Below, piece after piece: positions 23,431 through 57,815 of a stretch of 64,000 nucleotides of DNA. The stretch lies in assembly GCF_947036865.1 (NCBI RefSeq), contig NZ_CAMQSF010000004.1, positions 1 to 64,000 on the forward strand, given 5' to 3'. Below the pieces are notes generated by a model. It saw nothing but the letters and a program-made list of their open reading frames with translations. It did not search any database and was not told the DNA's origin. The number at the start of each line of letters is the position of its first letter. Position 1 is the stretch's first letter. A program made the position numbers and the translations under genes. The DNA comes from an uncultured Caulobacter sp. Lineage in GTDB: Bacteria; Pseudomonadota; Alphaproteobacteria; Caulobacterales; Caulobacteraceae.

Positions 23431-23469
23431 ATCCTTCCTCCAAATCTCGACGCCTCGGAGATGGCTGTC

Positions 23470-24429
23470 ATGCGCGAATCCACGGGCCGGCTTCTTGGGC
23501 TCCTCACGATGCTTATCGCCGGCGGTCTGGCCTCGACCGCGCAAGCCTCGCCCGCCGAGGCGCTGCGCAAGCTGAACGATCCGAACGGCGGCGTCTTCGT
23601 GGTGGCGCATCGCGGCTGCCACAATCCCGCGCCGTCGCGCGGTCTCTATGATCCGACCCCGGAGAACTCGCTTCAGGCCATGGATCGCTGCGTGGCGCTG
23701 GGCGTCGACATGGTCGAGACCGACGTCCGGCGCACCAAGGACGGCGTGCTGGTGATCATGCACGACGAGACGGTCAACCGCACCACCAACGGCGCTGGGC
23801 GGGTGGCGGACATGACCGTCGCGGAGTTCAAGCGCCTGCGCCTCAGGCAGAACTTCGGCGGCGCCATGTCGCCGATGCTGACCGACGAGGCGCCGTCGAC
23901 CTTGGACGAGTTCATGGCGCACGCGCGCGGCCGCATCATGCTGAACCTCGACATCAAGGAGCCGATCTACGCCGAAGTCGCCGCGGCGGTGACCAAGGCG
24001 GGGCTGGCCGACCAGATGCTGGTCAAGGCCGACGCGCTGCCCGACGCGCTCCCCCTGGTCGACCAGGCGCCCTATCGCGACACCCTGTTCATGCCGATGC
24101 TGAACACCCTGAGGACGGGGCCCGGCGCCGATCTCGCCGCGATCCTGAAGGCTCAAGCCTCGGGCCATCGGCGGATCTCCGCGGTCGAACTCGTCTTCCT
24201 GCGGCCGGAGAGCTTTCCGACGGTCAGCTTGGCGGCGCGCGAGGCCGGCGTCAGGCTCTGGAACAATACGCTGACGGCTGTCGGCGTGCTGGGCGTCGTC
24301 GGCTACGGCGGCGACCTCGACGCGCTCCGCGCGCCCGACCGCGTCTGGGGGCGGCAAATCCGGGCGGGGATCAGCGTCTTCCAGACGGACGAGCCCGCCG
24401 CGCTGCTGGATTATCTCGCCGCCGCGTGA
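23470..24429 (+). CDS. Secreted glycerophosphodiester phosphodiesterase
   Basis: A 319-residue GDPD-family enzyme that hydrolyses glycerophosphodiesters to sn-glycerol-3-phosphate and an alcohol, probably in the periplasm. A signal peptide (LLGLLTMLIAGGLASTAQA) is clear. Catalytic/metal motifs: AHRG (H47, R48), PENS (E65), ETD (E83, D85) and MHDE with H98. Length is normal. ATG 23470 is chosen because CGGAG sits 9 bases upstream; ATG 23461 three codons earlier lies directly against that sequence. It is followed by another secreted phosphoesterase, and glpD/glpK later in the window would use its product. Confidence 0.9.
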   Translation: MRESTGRLLGLLTMLIAGGLASTAQASPAEALRKLNDPNGGVFVVAHRGCHNPAPSRGLYDPTPENSLQAMDRCVALGVDMVETDVRRTKDGVLVIMHDETVNRTTNGAGRVADMTVAEFKRLRLRQNFGGAMSPMLTDEAPSTLDEFMAHARGRIMLNLDIKEPIYAEVAAAVTKAGLADQMLVKADALPDALPLVDQAPYRDTLFMPMLNTLRTGPGADLAAILKAQASGHRRISAVELVFLRPESFPTVSLAAREAGVRLWNNTLTAVGVLGVVGYGGDLDALRAPDRVWGRQIRAGISVFQTDEPAALLDYLAAA

Positions 24430-24529
24430 CCGAGATCGCCTGGCTGGACCGCGCCTCGATCTGATCGCCACCCGAAGCGGGGTGACGGCCATACCGGCGC
24501 GCGCTCGATGTCGGCCGGCCGACACAAGA

Positions 24530-24551
24530 TTGTCGCAAGCGCGCACTAGCG
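24530..24551 (+). promoter_or_regulatory. Sigma-73-like promoter for the YncE-phosphoesterase gene
   Basis: TTGTCGC (24530-24536) followed after 9 bases by CTAGCG (24546-24551) fits the Caulobacter housekeeping pattern TTGaCGS / GCTANAWC, 28 bases before the start codon. The box matches 14 of 21 positions without gaps to 42569-42589. Confidence 0.5.
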
Positions 24552-24579
24552 ATGCCGCGAGGGTAGGGGAGAGCGGGCT

Positions 24580-27423
24580 ATGCGGCTGTTCAAATCGGGC
24601 TTCGGACGTCCAGCGGCGCCGATCGTCTCGGCGCTTGCGTGCTGGGCGCTTTTGACGCCGGCGCAAGCCGCGGTGAACGCGAACGCCCCAACGCCCTTGC
24701 CCACGGGGCAGATGCTGACGCCGCTGGCCGCGCCCGGCGCGGTCTTCGAGCCGCTTCCGGCCCGCATCGGTCCGCTCCCCGAGACCCTGGCGGACGGCGC
24801 CTCGGCCATCGTGGCGAGCCCCGACGGCCGCGAGGTTCTGGTGCTGACCAGCGGCTACAACCGCGTGAACGGCCCCGACGGCAAGATCATCGCCGGGCAA
24901 TCCAAGGACTATGTCTTCCGGTACGCGGTCGAGCCCACCGGCGCCCGCTTCGTGGAAACGGTTCAGACGCCCAACAGCTTCTCCGGCGTCGCCTGGACGC
25001 CGAACGGCGACGGCTTCATCGTCGGCGGCGGCGTGGACGACGTGGTCCATCGCTTCGTCCGCGCCCCCGAGGGGTTCCGCCCCGCGCCGGGCGGCCCCGT
25101 CGCGCTGGGTCACGCCCAAGGCAATGGCGTCAAGGTGAAGCCGGAAGCCGCCGGCGTCGCGGTCAGCCCCGACGGCGCCCGGGCCCTGGTCGCCAACTAC
25201 TACAACGACTCGGTCAGCCTGATCGACCTGGCCAAGGGCGCGGCGGTGTTCGAACGCGATCTGCGCCCGGGCAAGATCGACCCCGCCCAGGCGGGAGCGC
25301 CGGGCGGCGAATTCCCGTTCGCCGTAGTGTGGACCGACGCGTCTCACGCGGTGGTCTCGGCCCCGCGCGATCGACAGCTGGTGCTGCTGCGGGTCACGGC
25401 GGACGGCGTCGAGGTGACCGGCCGGATCGCCACGATCGGCGAGCCCACCGCGCTGCTCTGGGACGGCAAGGCCCGCCGGCTCTACGCCACCGAGGACAAC
25501 GCCGACCGCGTCGCGGTGGCCGATGTCGACGCGGGCCGGCTGGTCGCGGAGTGGAAGCTGGCGCTGCCCGGCCTCGACCCGTCCGTGGGCAAGGGCCTGA
25601 ACCCCAACGGCCTGGCGCTGACGCCGGACGGGCGCCTGCTGGTCACCCTGGGCGGCGTCAACGCGCTGCTCGTCCTGTCGGCGGACGGCAAGACCGAAGG
25701 CGCCGTTCCCACCGGCTGGTATCCGAGCGGCGTGGCGTACGACGCCGCGGCCGGGCGGGTCTTCGTGATCAACCGCAAGAGCCCGCCGGGACCCAATCCG
25801 CGCGGTTGCGGACCCAAGGTGGCGTCCATCAAGTCGCAGGCCAGCGCCTGCGGCTCCGCCAACCAGTATGTGTTCCAGCTTGAAAAGGCCGGCCTGCTGA
25901 CCTTCCCGCTGCCGTCGGGCGCCGCCCTGGCCCGGACCACCGCGCAAGTGGCCAAGAACCTGGGCGCGGACATGGCGCGCGAGCGCGCGGCGGCCGCCAA
26001 GACCATGGCGGAACTGCGCAAGCGCATCAAACACGTGGTGTTCATCGTCAAGGAGAACCGCACCTATGATCAGGTGCTCGGCGATCTGCCGGTGGGCAAC
26101 GGCGACCCCAGTCTCGCGATCCTCGGCCGGCGCCTGACCCCCAACCACCACCGGCTGGCCGAACAGTTCGTCACGCTCGACAATTTCTACGACAGTGGCG
26201 AGCAGTCGAGCACGGGCTGGACCTGGACCACCGCCGCGCGCGCGCCGGACCTTCTGGAGAAGACCGCGCCGGTGAACTATTCGGGACGCGGGCTGTCCTA
26301 TCACGCCGAGCAGGCGGACCGGAACGTGCCGACGGCGCTGAGCCTGGCCGAGCGGCGGGCGACCAATCCGGCGACGCCGAACGATCCGGACCTGATGCCC
26401 GGCAAGGCCCTGCTCACCGCGCCCGACGCCGACGGCGACGACGACGACGCCAAGGGCGCCGGCTTCCTGTGGAGCGCGGCGATCAAGGCGGGCGTCTCGG
26501 TGCGCAATTACGGCATGGCCGACGCTTCGGTGTACGATCAGGGCGAGCCGGGCGACGTCGCGCCCCTGCGCGAACCCTGGAAGACGCGCACGCGCATCCA
26601 CACCGCCAGCGACAAGCTGCTGGCGACCCGCAGCGATCCCTATTTCCGCGGCTTCGATCAGCGTCTGGCCGACTATTGGCGCGTGATGGAGTGGCGGCGC
26701 GAGTTCGCGCAACAGGTCAAGAGCGGCGCCATGCCCAGGCTCACGCTGCTGCGCCTGAGCCACGATCACTTCGGCGACTTCAAGGACGCGCTGGACGGGG
26801 TCAACACGGTCGAGACCCAGATGGCCGACAACGATTTCTCGGTCGGTCTCGTGCTGGAGTCCCTGGCCAAGAGCCCGTTCGCCAAGTCGACCGTCGTGTT
26901 CATGATCGAGGACGACGCGCAGAACGGCGCCGACCACGTCGATGCGCGTCGGTCGATCGCCTTCGTGCTGGGCGCCTATGTGCGCCAGAAGGCGGTGGTC
27001 TCGACGCGCTACACCACGGTGAGCATGGTGCGCTCGATCGGCGATCTGCTGGGCCTCAAGCCGCTGAGCCTAAACGCGCGGATGGCCGCGCCCATGGCCG
27101 ACGTCTTCGACCTGAAGCAGTCGCCGACCTGGACCTATCAGGCGGTCGCGTCCGACGTGCTGAAGGCGACGGGCCTGCCGATCCCCGCCGATCGGTTCGA
27201 GCCGACACGGACGAGCCAGGCCTGCCCGGTGCGCGACGCCGCCTACTGGGCCGAGGCCATGGCCGGCCAGAACTTCGCCAAGGAGGATCGGCTGGACACC
27301 GCGCGGTTCAACGCGGCCCTGTGGCGGGGGCTGGGAACTGGTCCCGAGCCGATCGTGCGGACCGGCGAGAACCTGGCGCGCGATCGCGACGCCCTGCTCT
27401 CGAAACAGCCCGTCTGCCGCTGA
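24580..27423 (+). CDS. Secreted YncE-type beta-propeller fused to an alkaline-phosphatase-superfamily phosphoesterase
   Basis: A 947-residue exported protein with a signal peptide (ALACWALLTPAQAA). The N-terminal half (about residues 60-430) contains YncE/LVIVD-like propeller repeats such as GVAVSPDGARALVANYYNDSVSLIDL and GLALTPDGRLLVTLGGVNALLVLS. The C-terminal half (about 480-860) has the phosphoesterase/PLC-type metal motif KHVVFIVKENRTYDQVLGDL, LDNFYDSGEQSSTGWTW, LSHDHFGDFKDA and IEDDAQNGADHVDARRS. The substrate is unknown; the superfamily includes phospholipases C and phosphodiesterases. It follows a GDPD gene at 150 bases with its own promoter-like box, so both may serve extracellular phosphorus scavenging. 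Confidence 0.88.
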   Translation: MRLFKSGFGRPAAPIVSALACWALLTPAQAAVNANAPTPLPTGQMLTPLAAPGAVFEPLPARIGPLPETLADGASAIVASPDGREVLVLTSGYNRVNGPDGKIIAGQSKDYVFRYAVEPTGARFVETVQTPNSFSGVAWTPNGDGFIVGGGVDDVVHRFVRAPEGFRPAPGGPVALGHAQGNGVKVKPEAAGVAVSPDGARALVANYYNDSVSLIDLAKGAAVFERDLRPGKIDPAQAGAPGGEFPFAVVWTDASHAVVSAPRDRQLVLLRVTADGVEVTGRIATIGEPTALLWDGKARRLYATEDNADRVAVADVDAGRLVAEWKLALPGLDPSVGKGLNPNGLALTPDGRLLVTLGGVNALLVLSADGKTEGAVPTGWYPSGVAYDAAAGRVFVINRKSPPGPNPRGCGPKVASIKSQASACGSANQYVFQLEKAGLLTFPLPSGAALARTTAQVAKNLGADMARERAAAAKTMAELRKRIKHVVFIVKENRTYDQVLGDLPVGNGDPSLAILGRRLTPNHHRLAEQFVTLDNFYDSGEQSSTGWTWTTAARAPDLLEKTAPVNYSGRGLSYHAEQADRNVPTALSLAERRATNPATPNDPDLMPGKALLTAPDADGDDDDAKGAGFLWSAAIKAGVSVRNYGMADASVYDQGEPGDVAPLREPWKTRTRIHTASDKLLATRSDPYFRGFDQRLADYWRVMEWRREFAQQVKSGAMPRLTLLRLSHDHFGDFKDALDGVNTVETQMADNDFSVGLVLESLAKSPFAKSTVVFMIEDDAQNGADHVDARRSIAFVLGAYVRQKAVVSTRYTTVSMVRSIGDLLGLKPLSLNARMAAPMADVFDLKQSPTWTYQAVASDVLKATGLPIPADRFEPTRTSQACPVRDAAYWAEAMAGQNFAKEDRLDTARFNAALWRGLGTGPEPIVRTGENLARDRDALLSKQPVCR

Positions 27424-27451
27424 GCGGCGGCGGATCGGCCCCTCGCTTCGC

Positions 27452-28090
27452 TCAGTCCAGATCGGTCTGGCGCACGGCGAGGGTCGCGACGACGTCGCCG
27501 TCGCGGATCGTGAGGCAGCGCGACGCGTGGTCACGGCAGCGCGCGAAAAGGTCGCCGCCCTCGGCCCGCGTGGCGATGTCGCGCGCCTCGTAGAGACGGG
27601 CGCGCCCCGTGCGCTTGGCGTGGGCTTCCTTGGCGGTCCACAGCGCGAGGGCCAGCCGGGGCTGGCCGGCGATCCGCTCGCGTTCCGCCGGCGTGAAGGC
27701 GTCGTCCGGCGGGGGGTCTTGATCGACGCGCTCGAGGTCGACGCCGACCGGCTGTCGGGCCACGGCGACGGCCAACCGGGGCCAGCGGGCGCTCAGGCTG
27801 ACGTGCCAGCCGTCGGGGCTCATGACGAGCGGCGCGCCGAGCGTCGAGCGGCCGATGACGACGGCGTCGGGGTGCAGATCGGCCAGGCCGGCGATCAGCC
27901 CCTTCACCAGACGCCGCCGCGCCAGCCGCGACGCGGCGTCGGCGCGTCCGGCGAAGTCCGCGTAGTCGGCCGGCGTCAGCGCGGCGCGCGCCATCAAGGA
28001 CTCGGCCTCGGCGCTGTCCAGCGACGTCAGCCAGGCGAAGGGTTGGGCCGCCCGGACCGGGAGGTCCAGCGGCCCGACGATCCAACTCAC
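27452..28090 (-). CDS. 4'-phosphopantetheinyl transferase (Sfp type)
   Basis: A 212-residue Sfp-type transferase that converts an apo-carrier protein to its holo form using CoA. The signature reads GVDLERVD (magnesium Asp/Glu) and WTAKEAHAK, with WHVSLSA as the SHS-equivalent strand. The GTG at 28090 overlaps the NRPS stop as GTGA, and the reading frame before it runs into the NRPS gene, so translational coupling is likely. This strongly suggests that it modifies Ser583 of the neighbouring synthetase. It is convergent with the YncE-phosphoesterase gene, 28 bases apart. Confidence 0.9.
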   Translation of the reverse strand: MSWIVGPLDLPVRAAQPFAWLTSLDSAEAESLMARAALTPADYADFAGRADAASRLARRRLVKGLIAGLADLHPDAVVIGRSTLGAPLVMSPDGWHVSLSARWPRLAVAVARQPVGVDLERVDQDPPPDDAFTPAERERIAGQPRLALALWTAKEAHAKRTGRARLYEARDIATRAEGGDLFARCRDHASRCLTIRDGDVVATLAVRQTDLD

Positions 28091-31000
28091 CGCGCCGCGA
28101 TCCGCGCGGGCGAGCCTTCCCACGAGGTGCCGGCGGGCAGCAGCTCGCCCTTCATCACCACCGACAGGTCCCCGAGCATCGCGTCGTCGGCCAGTTCGGC
28201 GTCATAGAGAACCACCGCGTAGGATCCGATCGTGACCCGATCGCGGACCTGGACGCCGCTGACCTTCATGACCCGGTCCTCGAAGAGGTGGGTCTGCAGG
28301 CCCCCGAAGTCGTTGATCGCCACGTCGTCGCCGATCTCGACGAGGTCGTGCTCGGTGACGTCGGTCGTGTCGAGATAGCCGCGCTTGCCGATCTTGCAGC
28401 CCATCAGGCGAAGATAGACCGCGAGCCAAGGCGTGCCGCGCAACGGCTCCAGCAGATTGGTGACCGCGAGGTTCTCGTAGGTGGCCGTGACCAACTCGGT
28501 GCGCCAGACGAAGGTGCTCCACAGCGGTTGGATCGTCGGCTTGTAGCGTCCGATCACCAGCCACTTCAGCGCGACCACGAAGAGACCGGCGGCGAGCGCG
28601 AACCCTATGTAGAGGAACGGGAAGCTGAGCGCGATGAGCAAGGCGCCGTTGGGGAGGTCGTCGAGATCGCCGACCACCGAGAGCAGGACGGAAAACAGCG
28701 CCAGGAACACCGTCAGGGACAGGATCACCCTCACGAACTCGATCGAGAGACGCGTGGCCACCAGACGCTTGGACGGGTTGAACCGGGCGCCCTCGTCGAA
28801 CAGGCCGACGACTTGCCGGCTGGGCAGCGAGATCGGCGGCGAGCCGAACCAGGTGCCGCCGGGCTTGGCGGCCTCGCCCTGTTCCGGCGGCTTGGACAGC
28901 ACCCCGATCAGCACCTCGTCGCCGATGCTCGCGCCGGTCGGCAGGAGGGCGGAGTTGCCGATGAAGCTGCGCCGGCCGATGCGGGTGTGCTCCAGGCGAA
29001 TGGCGCCGGGCTCCACGCGCGCCGCGCCGAACTGAACCGCGTCGGCGATGAAGCTTTCGGGCCCGATCTCGACGAGGTCCGGCACGATCTTGGCGGCGGT
29101 CGAGATCTCGGCGCGGCGGCCCACCTTGACCCCCAGCGCCCGGTACCAGGGCAGGACATAGAGCGTCGCGTAGATCGGATGCAGCAGCCGCAGCGCCAGG
29201 TCGTTGATCTGCTGCACGAACCAGAACCGCACGTAGAACAAAGAGTTCAGGCTGTACCGGCCCGGCTTGACCTTGCCCAACAAGACCTGTTTGGCGAACA
29301 CCGTCAGGACGCACATCATCACGACGTAGGTGATGGCCAGCAGGGGCGCGACCGCCAGGTAGCCGTAGTCGTCCGTCCGCCAGTCAAGCTCGATCATCAT
29401 CACCAGACCTGGCGCGATCGGCAAAATGGCCATCAGCGGCAAGAGCAAGGCCCCCAGCATCAGGGCCAGGGTCGCGCGTCCCCGCGTGAAGGCGGTTTCG
29501 GCGGGCGCATCGCGATGCTCGGCGACCCGTCCCGTCGGTTGGGCGGGCGAGCCGTCCCAGATCTCGCCGGCGGGCACGTGCTGACCCGCGCCGAGGGCCG
29601 AGAGGTCCTCGAGCATCGCGCCCTCGCCCAGCGAGGAGTCGCGGCCCATCACGGCCATCGATCCCACGAAGGCGCGGGGTCCGATCGTCACGGGCCCCAG
29701 ATGCAGCATGCCCCGCTCGACGGCGCTGGTCGCCAGCAGCGCGTCGTCGCTGAGGATCGCGCCATCGCCGAGGGTCACCAGATCCGCCGCGTCGATATGG
29801 CCCTGACCGATGAAGGCGCCCTTGCCGATCTTGGCGCCCAGGAAGCGGTAATAGACGCGGATCATCGGCGTCCCGGCCATGTAGGGCGTGGCGATCACCT
29901 CCGAGAACCGTCTGACGAACCACCAGCGGAAATAGTAGGCGCCCCACAACGGGTAGCTGCCCGCGCGGTAGCGGCCGATCACCAGCCACTTCACCGCGAC
30001 CGAGACCGCCACGGCCAGCGGCGGGATCAGGATGAAGCTGAGACCGCTCAGCAGCAGCGCGGTGACCTTCGACATGTTGCCGTCGAGGTGCGTGTAGGTC
30101 AGGTAGGGGAAGAACCACTGCAGCCCCGCCACCGCGTAGATCGGGATCAGCGCCAGGGTCTGGGCGACGTAACAGGCCCAGCGCTTCCAATCGGCGATGC
30201 GATGGAAATCCTCGGGCGCGTGGCGCTTGCTGGACGTCCGTTCGCCGAGCCGGCCGGCCAGGCCGCGAATGGTCGGGGCGGCATAGAGGTCCTGGATCGA
30301 GACGCCCTCCAGGCCCGGCAGCTTGCGGATAGCCGAGACCAGGCGCGCCGCCTTCAGGGAGTGCCCCCCCAGGTCCTCGAAGAAGTCCTCCAGCACCGAG
30401 ACCTTGCGGGGCGCGAACGCCTCGGCCCAGACGGCGTGCAGGGTCTCTTCCATCGGCGTGGCCGGCGGCTCGACGTCGCCTTCGGCTTGGACGTCGGCCC
30501 GCGGTCGAACCAGCGCCTTGCGATCGACCTTGCCCGAGGCCGGCAGCGTCGGCAGCGCCTGCAGTTGCTGATAGGCCGCCGGGCGCATGTAGTTGGGCAG
30601 CCGGTCTCTGACCCGCGCGCGGATCGGCTCCAGGTCGATGACCGCGCCGCTTCGGGCGACCACGAAGGCGGCCAGCATCTCGCTGCCGTCCTCGTCCTGG
30701 AACAGGTGCGCCACCGCCTGGGCCACCGCCGGATCCTCGGCGATGACCGACTCGATCTCGCCAAGCTCCACCCGGAAGCCGCGGATCTTCACCTGGGTGT
30801 CGATGCGGCCCAGGAACTCGATGTCGCCGACCGCGTCGAGCCGCACGAGATCGCCGGAGCGATAGACCCGCGTCGGCGCGCCGTCCGGGGTCTTGAACGG
30901 CGTGGTCACGAACTTGGCCTCGGTGAGGTCGGGCCGGTTGACATACCCCTGGCCGACCCCGGGGCCGCCAATGATCAACTCGCCCTCGGACCCCGCCGGC

Positions 31001-32106
31001 ACCGGCCACAGCGCCTCGTCGACGATCCAGGCGGCGTAGCCGGGCAACGGCCGGCCGATCGTCACGCGCTGACCTGGCTGCAGCTCGGTCCAGGTGGCCG
31101 TGACCGTCGTCTCCGTGGGGCCATAGGTGTTGAGCAGCCGCAGCCCGGGCTTGGCCCAGCGCCCGACCAGCTCCGGCGGACAGGCCTCGCCGCCCAGGTT
31201 GAGCAGCCGCAAATCGGGCAGCTCATGGTCAACCAGCGACAGCAGGGAGGGCACCGCGTGCCAGACCGTGACGCCGGCCTCCGCCAAGGCGGGGGCCACG
31301 TCGGGTCCCGCCTTGGCCAGGGCCTCCGAGGCCACCAGCAAGGTCGCGCCGACGAAGAAGGCGCTCCACATGGTCTCCACCGACATGTCGAAGGCCAGGC
31401 TGAAGCCGCCGAAGACGCGGTCTTCCGGATCCAGGGCCAGCACGGCGCACTCGGAACGCACCAGGTGGCAGGCGTTGGCGTGGCTGATCATCACGCCCTT
31501 GGGGCGCCCGGTCGTTCCGGAGGTGTAGATGATGTAGGCCAGGTCGTCGGGCTGAACGCCCGTTTGCTCCCGCGTGACGGGGGCGGGGGCATGGGCGGCC
31601 AGGTCGCCCAGGGCCTCGTCGAGCGCCAGGGTCGCGACCGGCATCGCCCCGGCCCGCTCGCGCTCCGTCACGACCAGACGCGCGCCGCTGTCCTCGATGA
31701 TGAAGTCGATGCGATCCTGGGGATAGGACCAGTCGACCGGCACGTAGCAGGCGCCGGCCCACAGGATGCCGAGAATGGCCATGTACTGATCGAGGCCGCG
31801 GGGCAGGCAGAGGACCACGCGGTCGCCGCGCGTGACGCCCAAGGTCGCGAGGTGATGGGCGAACCGCAACGCGCGATCCTCGAGTTCCGCGTAACTGATC
31901 TCCGCGCGACGCGTGCGGTCGAGCTCGGGCGCCAGGAACCGCAAGGCCCGTCGGGTCGGATGCTGTCGGCAGGTGGCCTCGAAGATTTCGTGGAGCAGCT
32001 CGTGGCGCGCATAGGGCTCGCCATCGCGGATCGGCACGGTCGGCGCTATCGGCGCGAACACGGTGTCGTCGGTCAAGGCGCCCGTCGGCGACAGATCATC
32101 AGCCAT
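28087..32106 (-). CDS. Pls-type single-module NRPS (poly-amino-acid synthetase-like)
   Basis: 1339 residues. The adenylation domain (about 35-535) has YTSGTTGRPKG (194-204), YGPTETT, YRSGDL and ASGKVDRKAL; the carrier domain has DLGGHSLKAARL with phosphopantetheine Ser583. There is no condensation or thioesterase domain. Instead six membrane segments (about 643-668, 681-710, 878-905, 915-943, 1121-1146, 1153-1186) alternate with three left-handed-beta-helix-like tandem domains (about 715-870, 950-1100, 1190-1339). This is the layout of epsilon-poly-L-lysine synthetase and of the NRPS terminal-domain family. Hand-read pocket residues D240 M241 E244 H283 N303 G305 T327 V335 T336 K526 give Glu at the second code-defining position after Met, as in lysine-activating domains. 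The product is inferred, not shown. A cognate PPTase follows in the same operon. Confidence 0.88.
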   Translation of the reverse strand: MADDLSPTGALTDDTVFAPIAPTVPIRDGEPYARHELLHEIFEATCRQHPTRRALRFLAPELDRTRRAEISYAELEDRALRFAHHLATLGVTRGDRVVLCLPRGLDQYMAILGILWAGACYVPVDWSYPQDRIDFIIEDSGARLVVTERERAGAMPVATLALDEALGDLAAHAPAPVTREQTGVQPDDLAYIIYTSGTTGRPKGVMISHANACHLVRSECAVLALDPEDRVFGGFSLAFDMSVETMWSAFFVGATLLVASEALAKAGPDVAPALAEAGVTVWHAVPSLLSLVDHELPDLRLLNLGGEACPPELVGRWAKPGLRLLNTYGPTETTVTATWTELQPGQRVTIGRPLPGYAAWIVDEALWPVPAGSEGELIIGGPGVGQGYVNRPDLTEAKFVTTPFKTPDGAPTRVYRSGDLVRLDAVGDIEFLGRIDTQVKIRGFRVELGEIESVIAEDPAVAQAVAHLFQDEDGSEMLAAFVVARSGAVIDLEPIRARVRDRLPNYMRPAAYQQLQALPTLPASGKVDRKALVRPRADVQAEGDVEPPATPMEETLHAVWAEAFAPRKVSVLEDFFEDLGGHSLKAARLVSAIRKLPGLEGVSIQDLYAAPTIRGLAGRLGERTSSKRHAPEDFHRIADWKRWACYVAQTLALIPIYAVAGLQWFFPYLTYTHLDGNMSKVTALLLSGLSFILIPPLAVAVSVAVKWLVIGRYRAGSYPLWGAYYFRWWFVRRFSEVIATPYMAGTPMIRVYYRFLGAKIGKGAFIGQGHIDAADLVTLGDGAILSDDALLATSAVERGMLHLGPVTIGPRAFVGSMAVMGRDSSLGEGAMLEDLSALGAGQHVPAGEIWDGSPAQPTGRVAEHRDAPAETAFTRGRATLALMLGALLLPLMAILPIAPGLVMMIELDWRTDDYGYLAVAPLLAITYVVMMCVLTVFAKQVLLGKVKPGRYSLNSLFYVRFWFVQQINDLALRLLHPIYATLYVLPWYRALGVKVGRRAEISTAAKIVPDLVEIGPESFIADAVQFGAARVEPGAIRLEHTRIGRRSFIGNSALLPTGASIGDEVLIGVLSKPPEQGEAAKPGGTWFGSPPISLPSRQVVGLFDEGARFNPSKRLVATRLSIEFVRVILSLTVFLALFSVLLSVVGDLDDLPNGALLIALSFPFLYIGFALAAGLFVVALKWLVIGRYKPTIQPLWSTFVWRTELVTATYENLAVTNLLEPLRGTPWLAVYLRLMGCKIGKRGYLDTTDVTEHDLVEIGDDVAINDFGGLQTHLFEDRVMKVSGVQVRDRVTIGSYAVVLYDAELADDAMLGDLSVVMKGELLPAGTSWEGSPARIAAR

Positions 32107-32413
32107 TCGTCACTCATCGTCTCGGCGCGCGGGGCCTGGCAGATTCGCACCCTACTGGGACAGGAATCTGACGTCTGCCACGAGCAGCGTCCACCATGGG
32201 GGCGGCGAACTCATTCCGGGAAACGACTCCGGCCGCGCCGAGACGCAGCGGCATGCCAGCCCGGCGCCGACGCCGTCGTTGAGTGCTTTAGTCTAAGCCT
32301 CTGGAAGCGCGGCCCCCCGTTGGCTGGGCCGTTGGTCAGGCGATCACGCGGCTTCGCCTCCGCGACGGTCGCGCCGTCGCGGAGGCGTCCGAATCCGCCA
32401 AGGCGGGACGCGG
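32107..32413. other. 307-bp intergenic region upstream of the Pls-type NRPS
   Basis: No convincing gene. It holds the promoter region of the NRPS gene (minus strand) and the 3' region of the isochorismatase-family gene. The only clear structure is a 14-bp perfect hairpin at 32355-32387, listed separately. Confidence 0.6.
32355..32387 (-). terminator. GC-rich hairpin after the isochorismatase-family gene
   Basis: CGCCTCCGCGACGG (32355-32368), loop TCGCG, CCGTCGCGGAGGCG (32374-32387), 27 bases beyond the stop codon. The stem is perfect, but no T-run follows, so termination is likely but not certain. Confidence 0.6.
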
Positions 32414-39087: not shown

Positions 39088-40362
39088 ATGACTTCCAGAC
39101 TTACGCGCGGCCTGGCCCGGTCCGGGCCTGGGTGGGTGGCCGTCTACGCCCTCGCGGCGGCCTTCACGACCTACTTCTGCATGTACGCGTTCCGGAAGCC
39201 CTTCGCCGTGGCCAGCTATGCGGGCGTCTCGGGCTGGCCGTTCGCGATCGACTTCAAGATCGCCCTCGTGATCGCCCAGGTCATGGGCTACGCCCTGTCC
39301 AAGATGGTGGGCGTCAAGGTGGTCAGCGAGGCCAAGCCGCAGCGCCGGGCGCTGCTGATCGTGGGCTTCGTGCTCGCCTCCTGGCTGGCCCTGATCCTGT
39401 TCGCCGTCCTGCCCGCGCCGCTGAAGGTGGTCGCCATCTTCCTGAGCGGCCTGCCGCTGGGGATGATCTGGGGGCTGGTGTTCGGCTTTCTGGAGGGACG
39501 TCGCGCCACCGAATGGCTGGGCGCGGGTCTCTGCGTCAGCTTCATCGTCTCGTCGGGCGTGGTGAAGTCCGTCGGCCGGGCGCTGGTGGTGGATTACGGC
39601 GTGCCGGAGCTGTGGATGCCGGCGGCCACCGGCGCGCTGTTCCTGCCGCTGCTGGCCCTGTCGGTATGGATGCTGTCCCAGACCCCGCCGCCGGACGCCC
39701 GCGACGTGGCCGAGCGCATGGAGCGCCAGCCCATGTTCCGCGAGGAGCGGCGGGCCTTCTGGACCCGCGCGGGCCTGGGCCTGGCGCTGCTGATCGTCGC
39801 CTATGTCGTGCTGACGGCCCTGCGCGACTTCCGCGACAACTTCGCCGTCGAGCTGTGGGACGCGCTGGGCTATGGCGGCGAGCCGGCCATCTTCAGCCTC
39901 TCCGAGCTGCCGATCGCCGCGCTGATCCTGCCGCTGTTCGGCCTGACGGCGCTGATCCGCGACAATCGCCGCGCGGTGCTGGTCTATCACGTGATGATCA
40001 TCGTCGGCGCGATCCTGGTCGCGCTGGCGACCCTGGCCTGGCAGGCGCATCTGCTGAGCCCGCTGTGGTGGATGATCGCCGTCGGGGCCGGGGTCTATCT
40101 CGGCTACATCCCGTATAACGCCGTCCTGGCCGACCGGCTGACCGCCGCGCTCGGCCTGCCGGGGAACGCGGCCTTCTTCATGTATCTGGCCGACGCCTCC
40201 GGCTACGGCGGCAGCGTCGCGCTGATGCTGCTGAAGAACTTCGGCCTGTCCCTGAGCTGGCTCGGCTTCTTCACCGGTCTCTGCTACGCGGCCGCCGCCA
40301 TCGTGGGCGTCGCGACCATGGGCTCGGCCCTCTACTTCGCCCTGAAGGTCTTCCGCGAATGA
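39088..40362 (+). CDS. MFS transporter, DUF5690-like
   Basis: A 424-residue membrane protein with about twelve helices. The N-terminal AAAFTTYFCMYAFRKPFAVASY is typical of the DUF5690 MFS family, and the loop after helix 3 carries SKMVGVKVVSEAKPQRR. No characterised substrate is known to me for this family. It overlaps the phospholipase C gene by ATGA and follows the PhnZ-like gene after a 74-bp AT-rich gap, so it probably imports the phospho- or phosphono-headgroup liberated outside the cytoplasm. GGGGGCCGG precedes the ATG. Confidence 0.78.
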   Translation: MTSRLTRGLARSGPGWVAVYALAAAFTTYFCMYAFRKPFAVASYAGVSGWPFAIDFKIALVIAQVMGYALSKMVGVKVVSEAKPQRRALLIVGFVLASWLALILFAVLPAPLKVVAIFLSGLPLGMIWGLVFGFLEGRRATEWLGAGLCVSFIVSSGVVKSVGRALVVDYGVPELWMPAATGALFLPLLALSVWMLSQTPPPDARDVAERMERQPMFREERRAFWTRAGLGLALLIVAYVVLTALRDFRDNFAVELWDALGYGGEPAIFSLSELPIAALILPLFGLTALIRDNRRAVLVYHVMIIVGAILVALATLAWQAHLLSPLWWMIAVGAGVYLGYIPYNAVLADRLTAALGLPGNAAFFMYLADASGYGGSVALMLLKNFGLSLSWLGFFTGLCYAAAAIVGVATMGSALYFALKVFRE

Positions 40363-42521
40363 CCTCGACCCGCCGCCCCGTTTCCGCCGACCGCCGCCAG
40401 GTCCTGAAGGCGCTGGGCGCCGCGGGCCTGAGCGCCGCCACCCTGGCCACGCTGGAAAAGGCGATGGCCACCCCGGCCCACAACCGCACCGGCACGATCA
40501 TGGACGTCGAGCACGTCGTGATCCTGATGCAGGAGAACCGGGCCTTCGACCACTATTTCGGCAGCTTCCCCGGCGTGCGCGGCCTGGGCGATCCGCGTCC
40601 CCTGCGCCTGCGCAACGGCCACACCGTCTGGCGCCAGCCCAGCGACCAGCATCCGGACGGCTATGTCCAGCCCTACTGGGCCGATTCCAAGAGCGCCAAC
40701 GCCTATGTGGTCGACGGCGGCGATCAGGGGCACACGGCCGCGACGATCATCGTCAACGGCGGGCGGTTCGATCAGTGGGGCGTGTCGCGCCAGCTGCACA
40801 ACCGCATGACCTACTACAAGGCCTCGGACCTGCCCTTCTACCACGCCCTGGCCTCGACCTTCACGATCCTGGACGCCTATCACTGCTCGACCCTGACCCA
40901 GACCTATCCCAACCGCCTGCACCTGTGGACCGGCTGCAACGGCGGCGGCCGGGTGGGCGGCGATCCGGTGATGAGCAATTACGGCGAGGACGAGACCCCC
41001 TCGGCCGACATGGCCACCGATCAGCCGATCAAGGCCTATGAGTGGACGACCTACGCCGAGCGTCTCGAAGCGGCGGGGGTGAGCTGGAAGGTCTACCAGG
41101 AATACGACAATTTCGGCGACAACATCCTGTCGGTGTTCAAGCCCTTCCGGCCCTGCGACAAGGCCTCCAACCTCTATAAACGCGGCCGGTCCTGGGTGTC
41201 CGAGCACAAGGACGGCCCCGATCGCACCCGCTCGGACGGCCAGCAGCTGGTCGAGGCCTTCCGCGCCGACATCGCCGCCGGCCGCCTGCCGCGGGTGTCG
41301 TGGATCGTCACCGCGGCGGCCCTGTCCGAGCACCCGAACTGGACGCCGGCCGACGGCGAGAACCTGACCGCCAAGCTGATCGAGGCGCTGGTCGACCATC
41401 CGGAGGTGTTCTCCAAGACCGTCTTCATCCTGAACTATGACGAGGCGGGCGGCCTGTTCGACCACATGCTGCCGCCGATGCCCGCCGCCGACGCCAGCCG
41501 CGGCCACAGCGGCGTCAGCGTGGCCGGCGAGTTCAAGGATTACGACAAGCATCCCCACCCCGGCGTGAGCGGCCCGCAGCCCCTGGGCCTGGGCATCCGC
41601 GTGCCGGCCATCGTCGTCTCGCCCTGGAGCCGGGGCGGCTATGTCTGCTCGCAGGTGTTCGACCACACCTCGACCCTGAAGTTCCTCGAAAAGCGCTTCG
41701 GGGTGAGGGAGCCGAACATCTCCGACTGGCGGCGCGCGGTGTCGGGCGACCTGACGTCGTGCTTCGACTTCAAGACCCCGAACGCCGACACGCGGGGCCT
41801 GGCCCTGCCGTCGACCGACGACTACGGCCAGCGCCTGGCCCACGCCGCGCGCCAGCCGGCCCTGAAGATCCCCGCGGTCCAGACCGCCGCCAGCCAGCCA
41901 GCCGTGCAAAGGCCCGCGCGGGCTTTGCCCTATCGCCTGGGCGCGGACCTGCGGCCCGAGGGGGAGGGCGTGCTGATCGACCTCGTCAACACCGGCGACC
42001 AGGCGGCGGTCTTCTCCGTCCACGATTACGCGCCCTACGGCCTGGGCGCGGCGTGGCACTACACGCTGGTCGCGGGCGAGCGCCACACGGCGGGGCATTG
42101 GAACGCGGCCGACAAGGAAGCCTATGACCTGGCCGTGCACGGCCCGAACGGCTTCTATCGCCACTTTCGCGGTCCGAAGCCCAAGGGCCTCGGCGTGCGG
42201 GTCGCGCTACGCGAGGCCCCGGAGGCCGGAAAGATCGTCCTGGACCTGCGGAACGACGCCTCGACGGAGGCGGCCCTCGGCCTCGCGATGGATCCGCGCT
42301 ACCCCGTCGCGCCCGGCGCGGCGCGAACGCAGGCCATCGCCCTGAAGCCCGGCGAGCGGCGCGAGATCGCGCTCGATCTGACCGCCAGCGACCTGTGGTA
42401 CGATCTCAGCCTGACCGACGCGGCGGGCGCCGACACGCTCTGGCGCTATGCCGGCCACGTCGAAACCGGCAGGCCCAGCCGCACCGATCCCGGCATTGGC
42501 GCGATGGTGCTGACGGCGTGA
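40359..42521 (+). CDS. Tat-exported phospholipase C (phosphocholine-specific family)
   Basis: A 720-residue non-haemolytic/haemolytic PlcN/PlcH-type enzyme. The Tat signal is D11-R-R-Q-V-L-K-A-L-G. Catalytic-domain motifs are EHVVILMQENRAFDHYFGSFPGVRG, STLTQTYPNRLHLWTG, PRVSWIVTAAALSEHPNWTPADGEN, FILNYDEAGGLFDHMLPP and VSPWSRGGYVCSQVFDHTS. Two C-terminal DUF756 domains (about 545-715) complete the usual architecture. The family releases phosphorylated headgroups from phospholipids in the periplasm or outside. Position after a PhnZ-like oxygenase and a transporter suggests a headgroup-release, import and mineralisation pathway. A 12-bp perfect hairpin follows at 42528-42564. Confidence 0.92.
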   Translation: MTSTRRPVSADRRQVLKALGAAGLSAATLATLEKAMATPAHNRTGTIMDVEHVVILMQENRAFDHYFGSFPGVRGLGDPRPLRLRNGHTVWRQPSDQHPDGYVQPYWADSKSANAYVVDGGDQGHTAATIIVNGGRFDQWGVSRQLHNRMTYYKASDLPFYHALASTFTILDAYHCSTLTQTYPNRLHLWTGCNGGGRVGGDPVMSNYGEDETPSADMATDQPIKAYEWTTYAERLEAAGVSWKVYQEYDNFGDNILSVFKPFRPCDKASNLYKRGRSWVSEHKDGPDRTRSDGQQLVEAFRADIAAGRLPRVSWIVTAAALSEHPNWTPADGENLTAKLIEALVDHPEVFSKTVFILNYDEAGGLFDHMLPPMPAADASRGHSGVSVAGEFKDYDKHPHPGVSGPQPLGLGIRVPAIVVSPWSRGGYVCSQVFDHTSTLKFLEKRFGVREPNISDWRRAVSGDLTSCFDFKTPNADTRGLALPSTDDYGQRLAHAARQPALKIPAVQTAASQPAVQRPARALPYRLGADLRPEGEGVLIDLVNTGDQAAVFSVHDYAPYGLGAAWHYTLVAGERHTAGHWNAADKEAYDLAVHGPNGFYRHFRGPKPKGLGVRVALREAPEAGKIVLDLRNDASTEAALGLAMDPRYPVAPGAARTQAIALKPGERREIALDLTASDLWYDLSLTDAAGADTLWRYAGHVETGRPSRTDPGIGAMVLTA

Positions 42522-56247: not shown

Positions 56248-56251
<4 letters not shown>

Positions 56252-57765
56252 GCTTCCAGCGCCTTCATCGCGGGCGCGTCGGCCTTGCCGGCCAGATAGG
56301 CCTCGAGCCGGGCGACCGCCTCGCGCGGCAGATGCAAGCCGAGCTTGCTGCGGCGATAGAGGATGTCCTCGGCCGTGCGGGCCCATTCCTCGGCGACCAG
56401 ATAGTCGACCTCGGCGGCGTAAAGCCCCGCGCCGAAGGCCTCGCCGAGATCCTTGGGGCTCGTCGCGCCGGCCATGAACCGCCGCGCGCGCGTCCCGTAG
56501 GAGCGCGCCAGGCGCAGCGCCAGGTCGTCGGCGAGGAACGGGAACTCCGCGCGCAGCGCCTGGGCGAGGGCGCGCTGGTCCAGGTTCGGCACGTCGCCGC
56601 CGGGCAGGACGGCGCCGCGCGTCCAGGACGGTCCGGCGTGGGGGAAGAAGGTCGCCAGCCGATCCAGCGCGTGGTCGGCCAGGCGGCGATAGGTGGTGAT
56701 CTTGCCGCCGAACACCGACAGCACCGGCGCGGCGCCCTCCGGCGCGTCGACCTCCAGCACATAGTCGCGCGTCACGGCCGAGGCGTCGTCGGCCTGGTCG
56801 TCGAACAGCGGGCGCACGCCGGCATAGCTCCAGACCACGTCGTCTGGCGTGGTGGGACGGGTGAAGTAGCGATTGAGGCTCTCGCACAGATAGTCGACCT
56901 CGGCGTCCGAGATCCGGGCCGGTCCCGGCGCGGCGTCCCAGGCGACGTCGGTGGTGCCCACCAGGGTGAAGCGATCCTCGTAGGGGATGGCGAACACGAT
57001 CCGGCGGTCGGGGTTCTGCAGCATGTAGGCGTGATCGCCCTCGAACAATCGGGGCACCACGATGTGGCTGCCCTTGATCAGCCGGGTCCCGCTGCCGCCG
57101 GCCACCTTCAGGGCGCCGCCCAGCACCTCGGACACCCAGGGGCCGGCCGCGTTGACGATGGCCCGGGCGCGGACCTTCCTGGCCGGCCCGTTCTCGGGCT
57201 CGAGCAGCGCCTCCCAGGATGCGCCGCTGCGGCGGGCCGAGACCAGCTTGGTTCGGGTCTCGATCTGGGCGCCGCGCGCGCGCGCGTCCAGGGCGTTCAG
57301 GGTCACCAGCCGCGCGTCGTCGACCCAGCAGTCCGAATAGACGAAGGCCTTGCGGTAGTCGGGCCGCAGCGACGCGCCCTCCAGCGCGCCCTTCAGGTCG
57401 AGGCCGCGCGAGCCGGGGAGGCGACGACGGCCGCCCAGATGGTCGTAGAGAAACAGGCCCAGCCGCACCAGCCAGGCGGGGCGAGTGGCGTGAGCGTGGG
57501 GCAGCACGAAGCGCAGCGGCCAGATGATGTGCGGGGCCATGGCCAGCAGCGTCTCGCGCTCCTCGAGCGCTTCGCGGACCAGCCGGAACTCATAATATTC
57601 GAGATAGCGAAGGCCGCCGTGCACCAGCTTGGTGCTGGCCGAGGACGTGGCGCTCGCCAGGTCGTTCTGTTCGACCAGCAGCACCGACAGCCCGCGACCC
57701 GCCGCGTCACGGGCCACGCCCGCGCCGTTGACGCCGCCGCCGACCACCAGAAGGTCGAACTCCAT
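56248..57765 (-). CDS. glpD: Aerobic glycerol-3-phosphate dehydrogenase
   Basis: A 505-residue FAD-dependent, quinone-reducing dehydrogenase converting glycerol-3-phosphate to dihydroxyacetone phosphate at the inner membrane. The N-terminal FAD motif is [29 protein letters not shown], followed by [48 protein letters not shown] and the C-terminal [21 protein letters not shown] 57765 is preferred over GTG 57771 for its spacing from GGAGG. It is the first gene of glpD-glpK, divergent from glpR across a 175-bp gap with a DeoR-type operator. Confidence 0.97.
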
Positions 57766-57815
57766 CCTCACGCTCCTCCCTTATTTTGCGATCTCGTTAG
57801 CGCATTGGGCTTCAA

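Follow-up and report, generated by a model that had tools for sequence, protein, structure and literature searches.

Architecture of the locus

We analysed a window of 64,000 nucleotides from an uncultured Caulobacter sp. (positions 1-64,000 of contig NZ_CAMQSF010000004.1, assembly GCF_947036865.1) that carries two overlapping genes, one for a Pls/PosA-family homopolymer synthetase and one for a 4'-phosphopantetheinyl transferase (PPTase) (Table 1). Pfam matched AMP-binding (residues 42-388), AMP-binding_C (450-520), PP-binding (555-620) and hexapeptide repeats in the synthetase, giving the single adenylation (A) domain and single carrier of the Pls/PosA layout; no condensation or thioesterase family was among the six Pfam families matching it at E values up to 1. 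The NCBIfam model TIGR02353 ('Pls/PosA family NRPS', nonribosomal peptide synthetase) matched residues 647-1334 with 818.5 bits (cut-off 423.1) over its full 695 positions (profile 1-695). Strong hydrophobic segments were found in the C-terminal part at residues 643-669, 676-712, 875-909, 913-947, 1115-1152 and 1151-1189 (hydropathy peaks 1.66-2.77), at a threshold that also marks weaker A-domain stretches (peaks up to 1.54). The AlphaFold2 model (mean predicted local distance difference test, pLDDT, 87.4; predicted template modelling score, pTM, 0.88) predicted three pairs of helices with strands of beta-helix character after each pair; hydropathy and the model thus point to the six paired helices and three intervening domains of the Pls/PosA class. 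The layout proposed in the preliminary description (A domain, carrier, six membrane helices, three terminal domains, 1339 residues and neither condensation nor thioesterase domain) was confirmed by Pfam, TIGR02353, hydropathy and AlphaFold2. The carrier serine, Ser583, was the same in all 71 aligned rows and is the presumed phosphopantetheine site. Several residues of the polymerisation domain were invariant in 97 rows, including one Streptomyces Pls-type row, and H1273 was the only conserved histidine of this domain. The synthetase is a real member of a known family and appears to be intact.

The GTGA at 28090-28087, where the synthetase stop codon overlaps the GTG start of the PPTase gene, was found at the coordinates first read; the open reading frame (ORF) list takes a start further upstream, the GTG at 28123 (223 aa). 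The PPTase belongs to the superfamily described by Pfam ACPS (PF01648; 39.3 bits, cut-off 25). Its sole NCBIfam match at E 0.01 was the AusB PPTase (27.4 bits, far below the cut-off of 225), and AusB is an enzyme of the Sfp type. The length of 212 aa and the sequences VGVDLE and WTAKEAHAK, both present in the protein, presumably fit the Sfp type.

Table 1. Coordinates of the synthetase, its parts, the PPTase gene and the DNA match to the nearest relative.
Feature	Position	Strand	Details and basis
4'-phosphopantetheinyl transferase	27452..28090	(-)	212 aa, GTG start; Pfam ACPS, putative Sfp type
Long DNA match to nearest relative	27495..32120	(-)	83% identity; L176, 20 kb compared
Pls/PosA-family homopolymer synthetase (A - carrier - six-helix membrane polymerisation domain)	28087..32106	(-)	1339 aa, ATG start; domain matches, hydropathy, model
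Membrane polymerisation domain	28090..30201	(-)	residues 636-1339, three left-handed beta-helix (LbH) domains with six hydrophobic helices; TIGR02353, hydropathy, AlphaFold2
Carrier domain	30247..30444	(-)	residues 555-620, serine 583 in LGGHSL; Pfam and aligned relatives
Adenylation domain	30487..32106	(-)	residues 1-540 approximately, pocket code DMEHNGTVTK; pocket alignment

Substrate pocket and product

The pocket code D-M-E-H-N-G-T-V-T-K, previously read by hand, proved correct and was located at residues 240, 241, 244, 283, 303, 305, 327, 335, 336 and 526 (places 1-9 by alignment to PosA and Pls). It agrees at 9 of 10 places with DMEHNGTVSK, the code of PosA; the sole change is Ser to Thr at place 9. 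PosA, the Acinetobacter baumannii enzyme that synthesises delta-poly-L-ornithine (PDB 8G95-8G98), was described in 2023 together with mass spectra of its product and structures (PMC10522769), and its activity on ornithine was shown experimentally. Only 6 of 10 places are shared with the lysine-type code DAESIGTVVK, which makes ornithine likelier than lysine, and from this comparison ornithine is probably the substrate. D240 and E244 provide the Asp and Glu at places 1 and 3 that are conserved in cationic homopolymer synthetases (PMC10522769), while Met241 occupies place 2, where lysine enzymes have Ala. Pocket and family thus support a diamino acid as the likely substrate, in line with the basic amino acid suggested earlier, but lysine as its model gives way to ornithine. 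The code of the window protein may already stand in the supplementary code table of the PosA authors.

Beyond the pocket, the window protein resembles PosA in domain order and in its membrane domain, which is predicted to place three beta-helices over six helices. However, A-domain identity is 39-40%, and posA forms an operon of one gene according to PMC10522769, in contrast to the overlapping PPTase gene of the window. Pls, the Streptomyces epsilon-poly-L-lysine synthetase (PDB 7WEW), belongs to the same A-domain family, with 51% identity in the pocket stretch, and PMC10522769 gives it the same domain order. Of the 9 pocket places visible in 7WEW it shares 5, with Ala at place 2, and a Streptomyces row 98% identical to the 7WEW pocket stretch agrees at 6 of 10. 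The proposed likeness to Pls holds at the family level. The idea that a cationic homopolymer would be a novelty in Gram-negative bacteria did not survive, as PosA was in print in 2023 (PMC10522769) and a sphingomonad relative is already annotated 'Pls/PosA family'. Literature word searches, whose coverage left out most subscription journals, found no such product reported from Caulobacter or Sphingomonas.

Judging from the sequence, we give a probability of about 0.7 to the reading that the enzyme is a Pls/PosA-family synthetase of a cationic homo-poly(amino acid), its most likely product being isopeptide-linked poly-L-ornithine, and that its gene is carried on a cassette from the sphingomonad side. 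Several observations weigh against this reading. In the tree, the window protein was placed in a clade separate from the four PosA-code rows (L147, L148, L150 and L154), which stand in for PosA, itself outside the tree, and are 70-77% identical to its printed stretch. The whole pocket stretch is equally close to Pls and PosA, Thr at place 9 is common to DFEALGTVTK enzymes, and the A domain of PosA has some lysine activity (PMC10522769). Nearby Caulobacterales relatives have different pockets (DVEANGTGSK, DIECNGTVTK), so the clade seems prone to drift in substrate specificity. The last four of these points would suit an enzyme of the same type with another diamino acid monomer (lysine, 2,4-diaminobutyrate or a modified one). 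We regard this as unlikely, if well worth keeping in mind, since places 2 (Met) and 4-5 (His-Asn) carry the PosA set, and since PosA made no lysine polymer despite its lysine activity (PMC10522769).

The polymerisation domain also resembles small-molecule O- and N-acetyltransferases, and two neighbourhood tests found no further conserved gene beside the synthetase-PPTase pair. Both facts would agree with an enzyme that loads the diamino acid but stops at short oligomers, or modifies a component of the envelope, a polymer not being the physiological product. This is very improbable in our judgement: a family member with a like C-terminal domain yields chains of 7-12 units (PMC10522769), and the invariant polymerisation-domain residues extend to the Streptomyces Pls-type row.

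Other pockets were observed among the relatives. DVEANGTGSK, DIECNGTVTK, DVECNGTVTK, DVEFNGTVAK and DIEADGTVAK occurred in L071, L073, L075, L081, L091, L095, L098, L101 and L102, mostly Caulobacterales; they are absent from the codes in the consulted sections of PMC10522769, and other substrates are possible for these enzymes. The pocket of L162 (genome G281, of the window's class), DSECYGGVTK, is the code of a 'Bdellovibrionales' enzyme with reported L-arginine activity (PMC10522769). A DLED-type pocket marked a clade of L155-L161, L168 and L170, and also L109 and L110 (Azospirillum, Rhizobium, Bosea, Beijerinckiaceae and others); PMC10522769 counts it as a signature of its own for which no product is known.

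Coupling, distribution and origin of the gene pair

The link between synthetase and PPTase noted in the preliminary description recurs: the PPTase gene was directly downstream in 58 of the 94 relatives with enough downstream sequence, and a four-base stop/start overlap is possible in 46 of these 58. The 96 relatives with an ORF of at least 1100 aa were considered, with L102 and L152, probably one genome, counted twice; L081 and L092 had too little downstream sequence for the coupling count, L085, L089, L105, L106 and L115 (shorter ORFs) were left out of the code and coupling counts, and L163 was dropped as a duplicate of L041. Coupling was found in 56/64 relatives with at least 54% identity to the window protein, nearly all of them Sphingomonadales or Caulobacterales, and in 2/30 below 54%, a split chosen after the rows were seen; at 66% identity or more it was 50/51. 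Below 54% coupling is perhaps undercounted, because the PPTase profile was built from near PPTases. The window genome has two ACPS-family matches, the coupled PPTase and acpS (TIGR00516, 70.0 bits, cut-off 59.8), while among 75 genomes of the genus there was one match in 55, two or more in 17 and none in 3. A cassette that carries its own activator is the simplest reading.

The Sphingomonas relatives annotated 'Pls/PosA family' (e.g. on the S. parapaucimobilis plasmid NZ_CP155753.1) are 68-69% identical over nearly the whole protein, with an identical pocket and the PPTase gene in an ATGA overlap. They differ in a third gene, for a GNAT acetyltransferase (PF00583), overlapping the PPTase gene; a search with the Sphingomonas gene gave no match in the window's genome. 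The GNAT gene follows the PPTase gene in 34 of 35 matching Sphingomonas loci, including L164:12526-13083, the only locus where the overlap was read; in the exception, L046, it lies apart, upstream. The enzyme might acetylate monomer or polymer for self-protection.

The Pls/PosA family is common. Of 398 genomes sampled from the window's phylum, 26, window genome included, passed the TIGR02353 cut-off, and PMC10522769 reports the family from bacteria and archaea as well as from fungi and some further eukaryotes. Within Caulobacter, the synthetase was present in only 2/75 genomes, the window's own and the OR37-like G485; the closest relative found was that of Caulobacter OR37 (88% identity). A tree was built by a quick method from 62 of the 97 rows after thinning at 88% identity; in it, the window and OR37-like pair stood among Sphingomonadaceae, beside a Novosphingobium row, and other Caulobacteraceae branched elsewhere. 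Relatives also occur on the Sphingomonas plasmid and in Aureimonas (L049). A single group of the seven Caulobacteraceae rows was rejected (approximately unbiased test, p-AU 2.3e-5; 22 rows, group named after the tree was seen).

Besides the long match in Table 1, only three matches of 56-117 bases were found between the window and the 20 kb around the G485 synthetase, and the next-door phosphoesterase gene (24513-27437) matched another contig, not these 20 kb. Flanking genes are also rare in the genus (phosphoesterase in 2/75 and an isochorismatase-like gene in 1/75 genomes, at the limits used). Base composition was uninformative on origin (G+C at third codon positions, GC3, 91.8% in the synthetase vs. 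91.2% in the phosphoesterase gene). Tree and distribution together make horizontal gain of the pair well supported and also support its entry from the sphingomonad side; the pair has the look of a two-gene cassette, self-sufficient and gained by horizontal transfer. The synthetase family itself is known; modest novelty lies in the PPTase-coupled and apparently mobile pair.

Around the pair lie genes for a glycerophosphodiesterase (23461-24429), the phosphoesterase-family protein mentioned above (24580-27423), a phospholipase C-like phosphoesterase-family protein (40359-42521), an alpha-glycerophosphate-oxidase-like protein (56248-57771) and several TonB receptors. This looks like organophosphate or phospholipid use, outside the cassette. 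A gene for a DUF5690 protein (39088-40362, 494 bits) runs by a four-base overlap into the phospholipase C-like gene just after it.

Proposed mechanism and significance

Polymer formation has been shown for members of the family and is predicted for the window protein from its sequence. In the proposed mechanism, the overlapping PPTase would load phosphopantetheine onto Ser583, and the A domain, as pocket and family suggest, would activate L-ornithine with ATP and load the carrier arm. The membrane domain, with its three helix pairs and acyltransferase-like beta-helices, would then repeatedly transfer the aminoacyl group onto a side-chain amine in another residue or chain. The PosA paper describes the polymerisation domain of this class as lacking an experimental structure (PMC10522769); conservation makes His1273, which lies in the third beta-helix, the leading candidate for a catalytic base. 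Tree and distribution suggest that the gene pair entered this genome as a unit sufficient in itself.

More tentatively, and at somewhat less than even odds, a portable synthetase-PPTase cassette may enable bacteria in which a single AcpS-like activator is the rule to make cationic isopeptide polymers. It would have spread among sphingomonads and into Caulobacter, with a Caulobacterales branch that drifted to pockets for undescribed polymers. If true, a proven class of antimicrobial-type polymers would reach sphingomonads and Caulobacter with a named substrate. The coupled PPTase would simplify work on the pair in a laboratory host, and the lone conserved histidine of the polymerisation domain would offer a direct handle on how amino acids are joined without a condensation domain.
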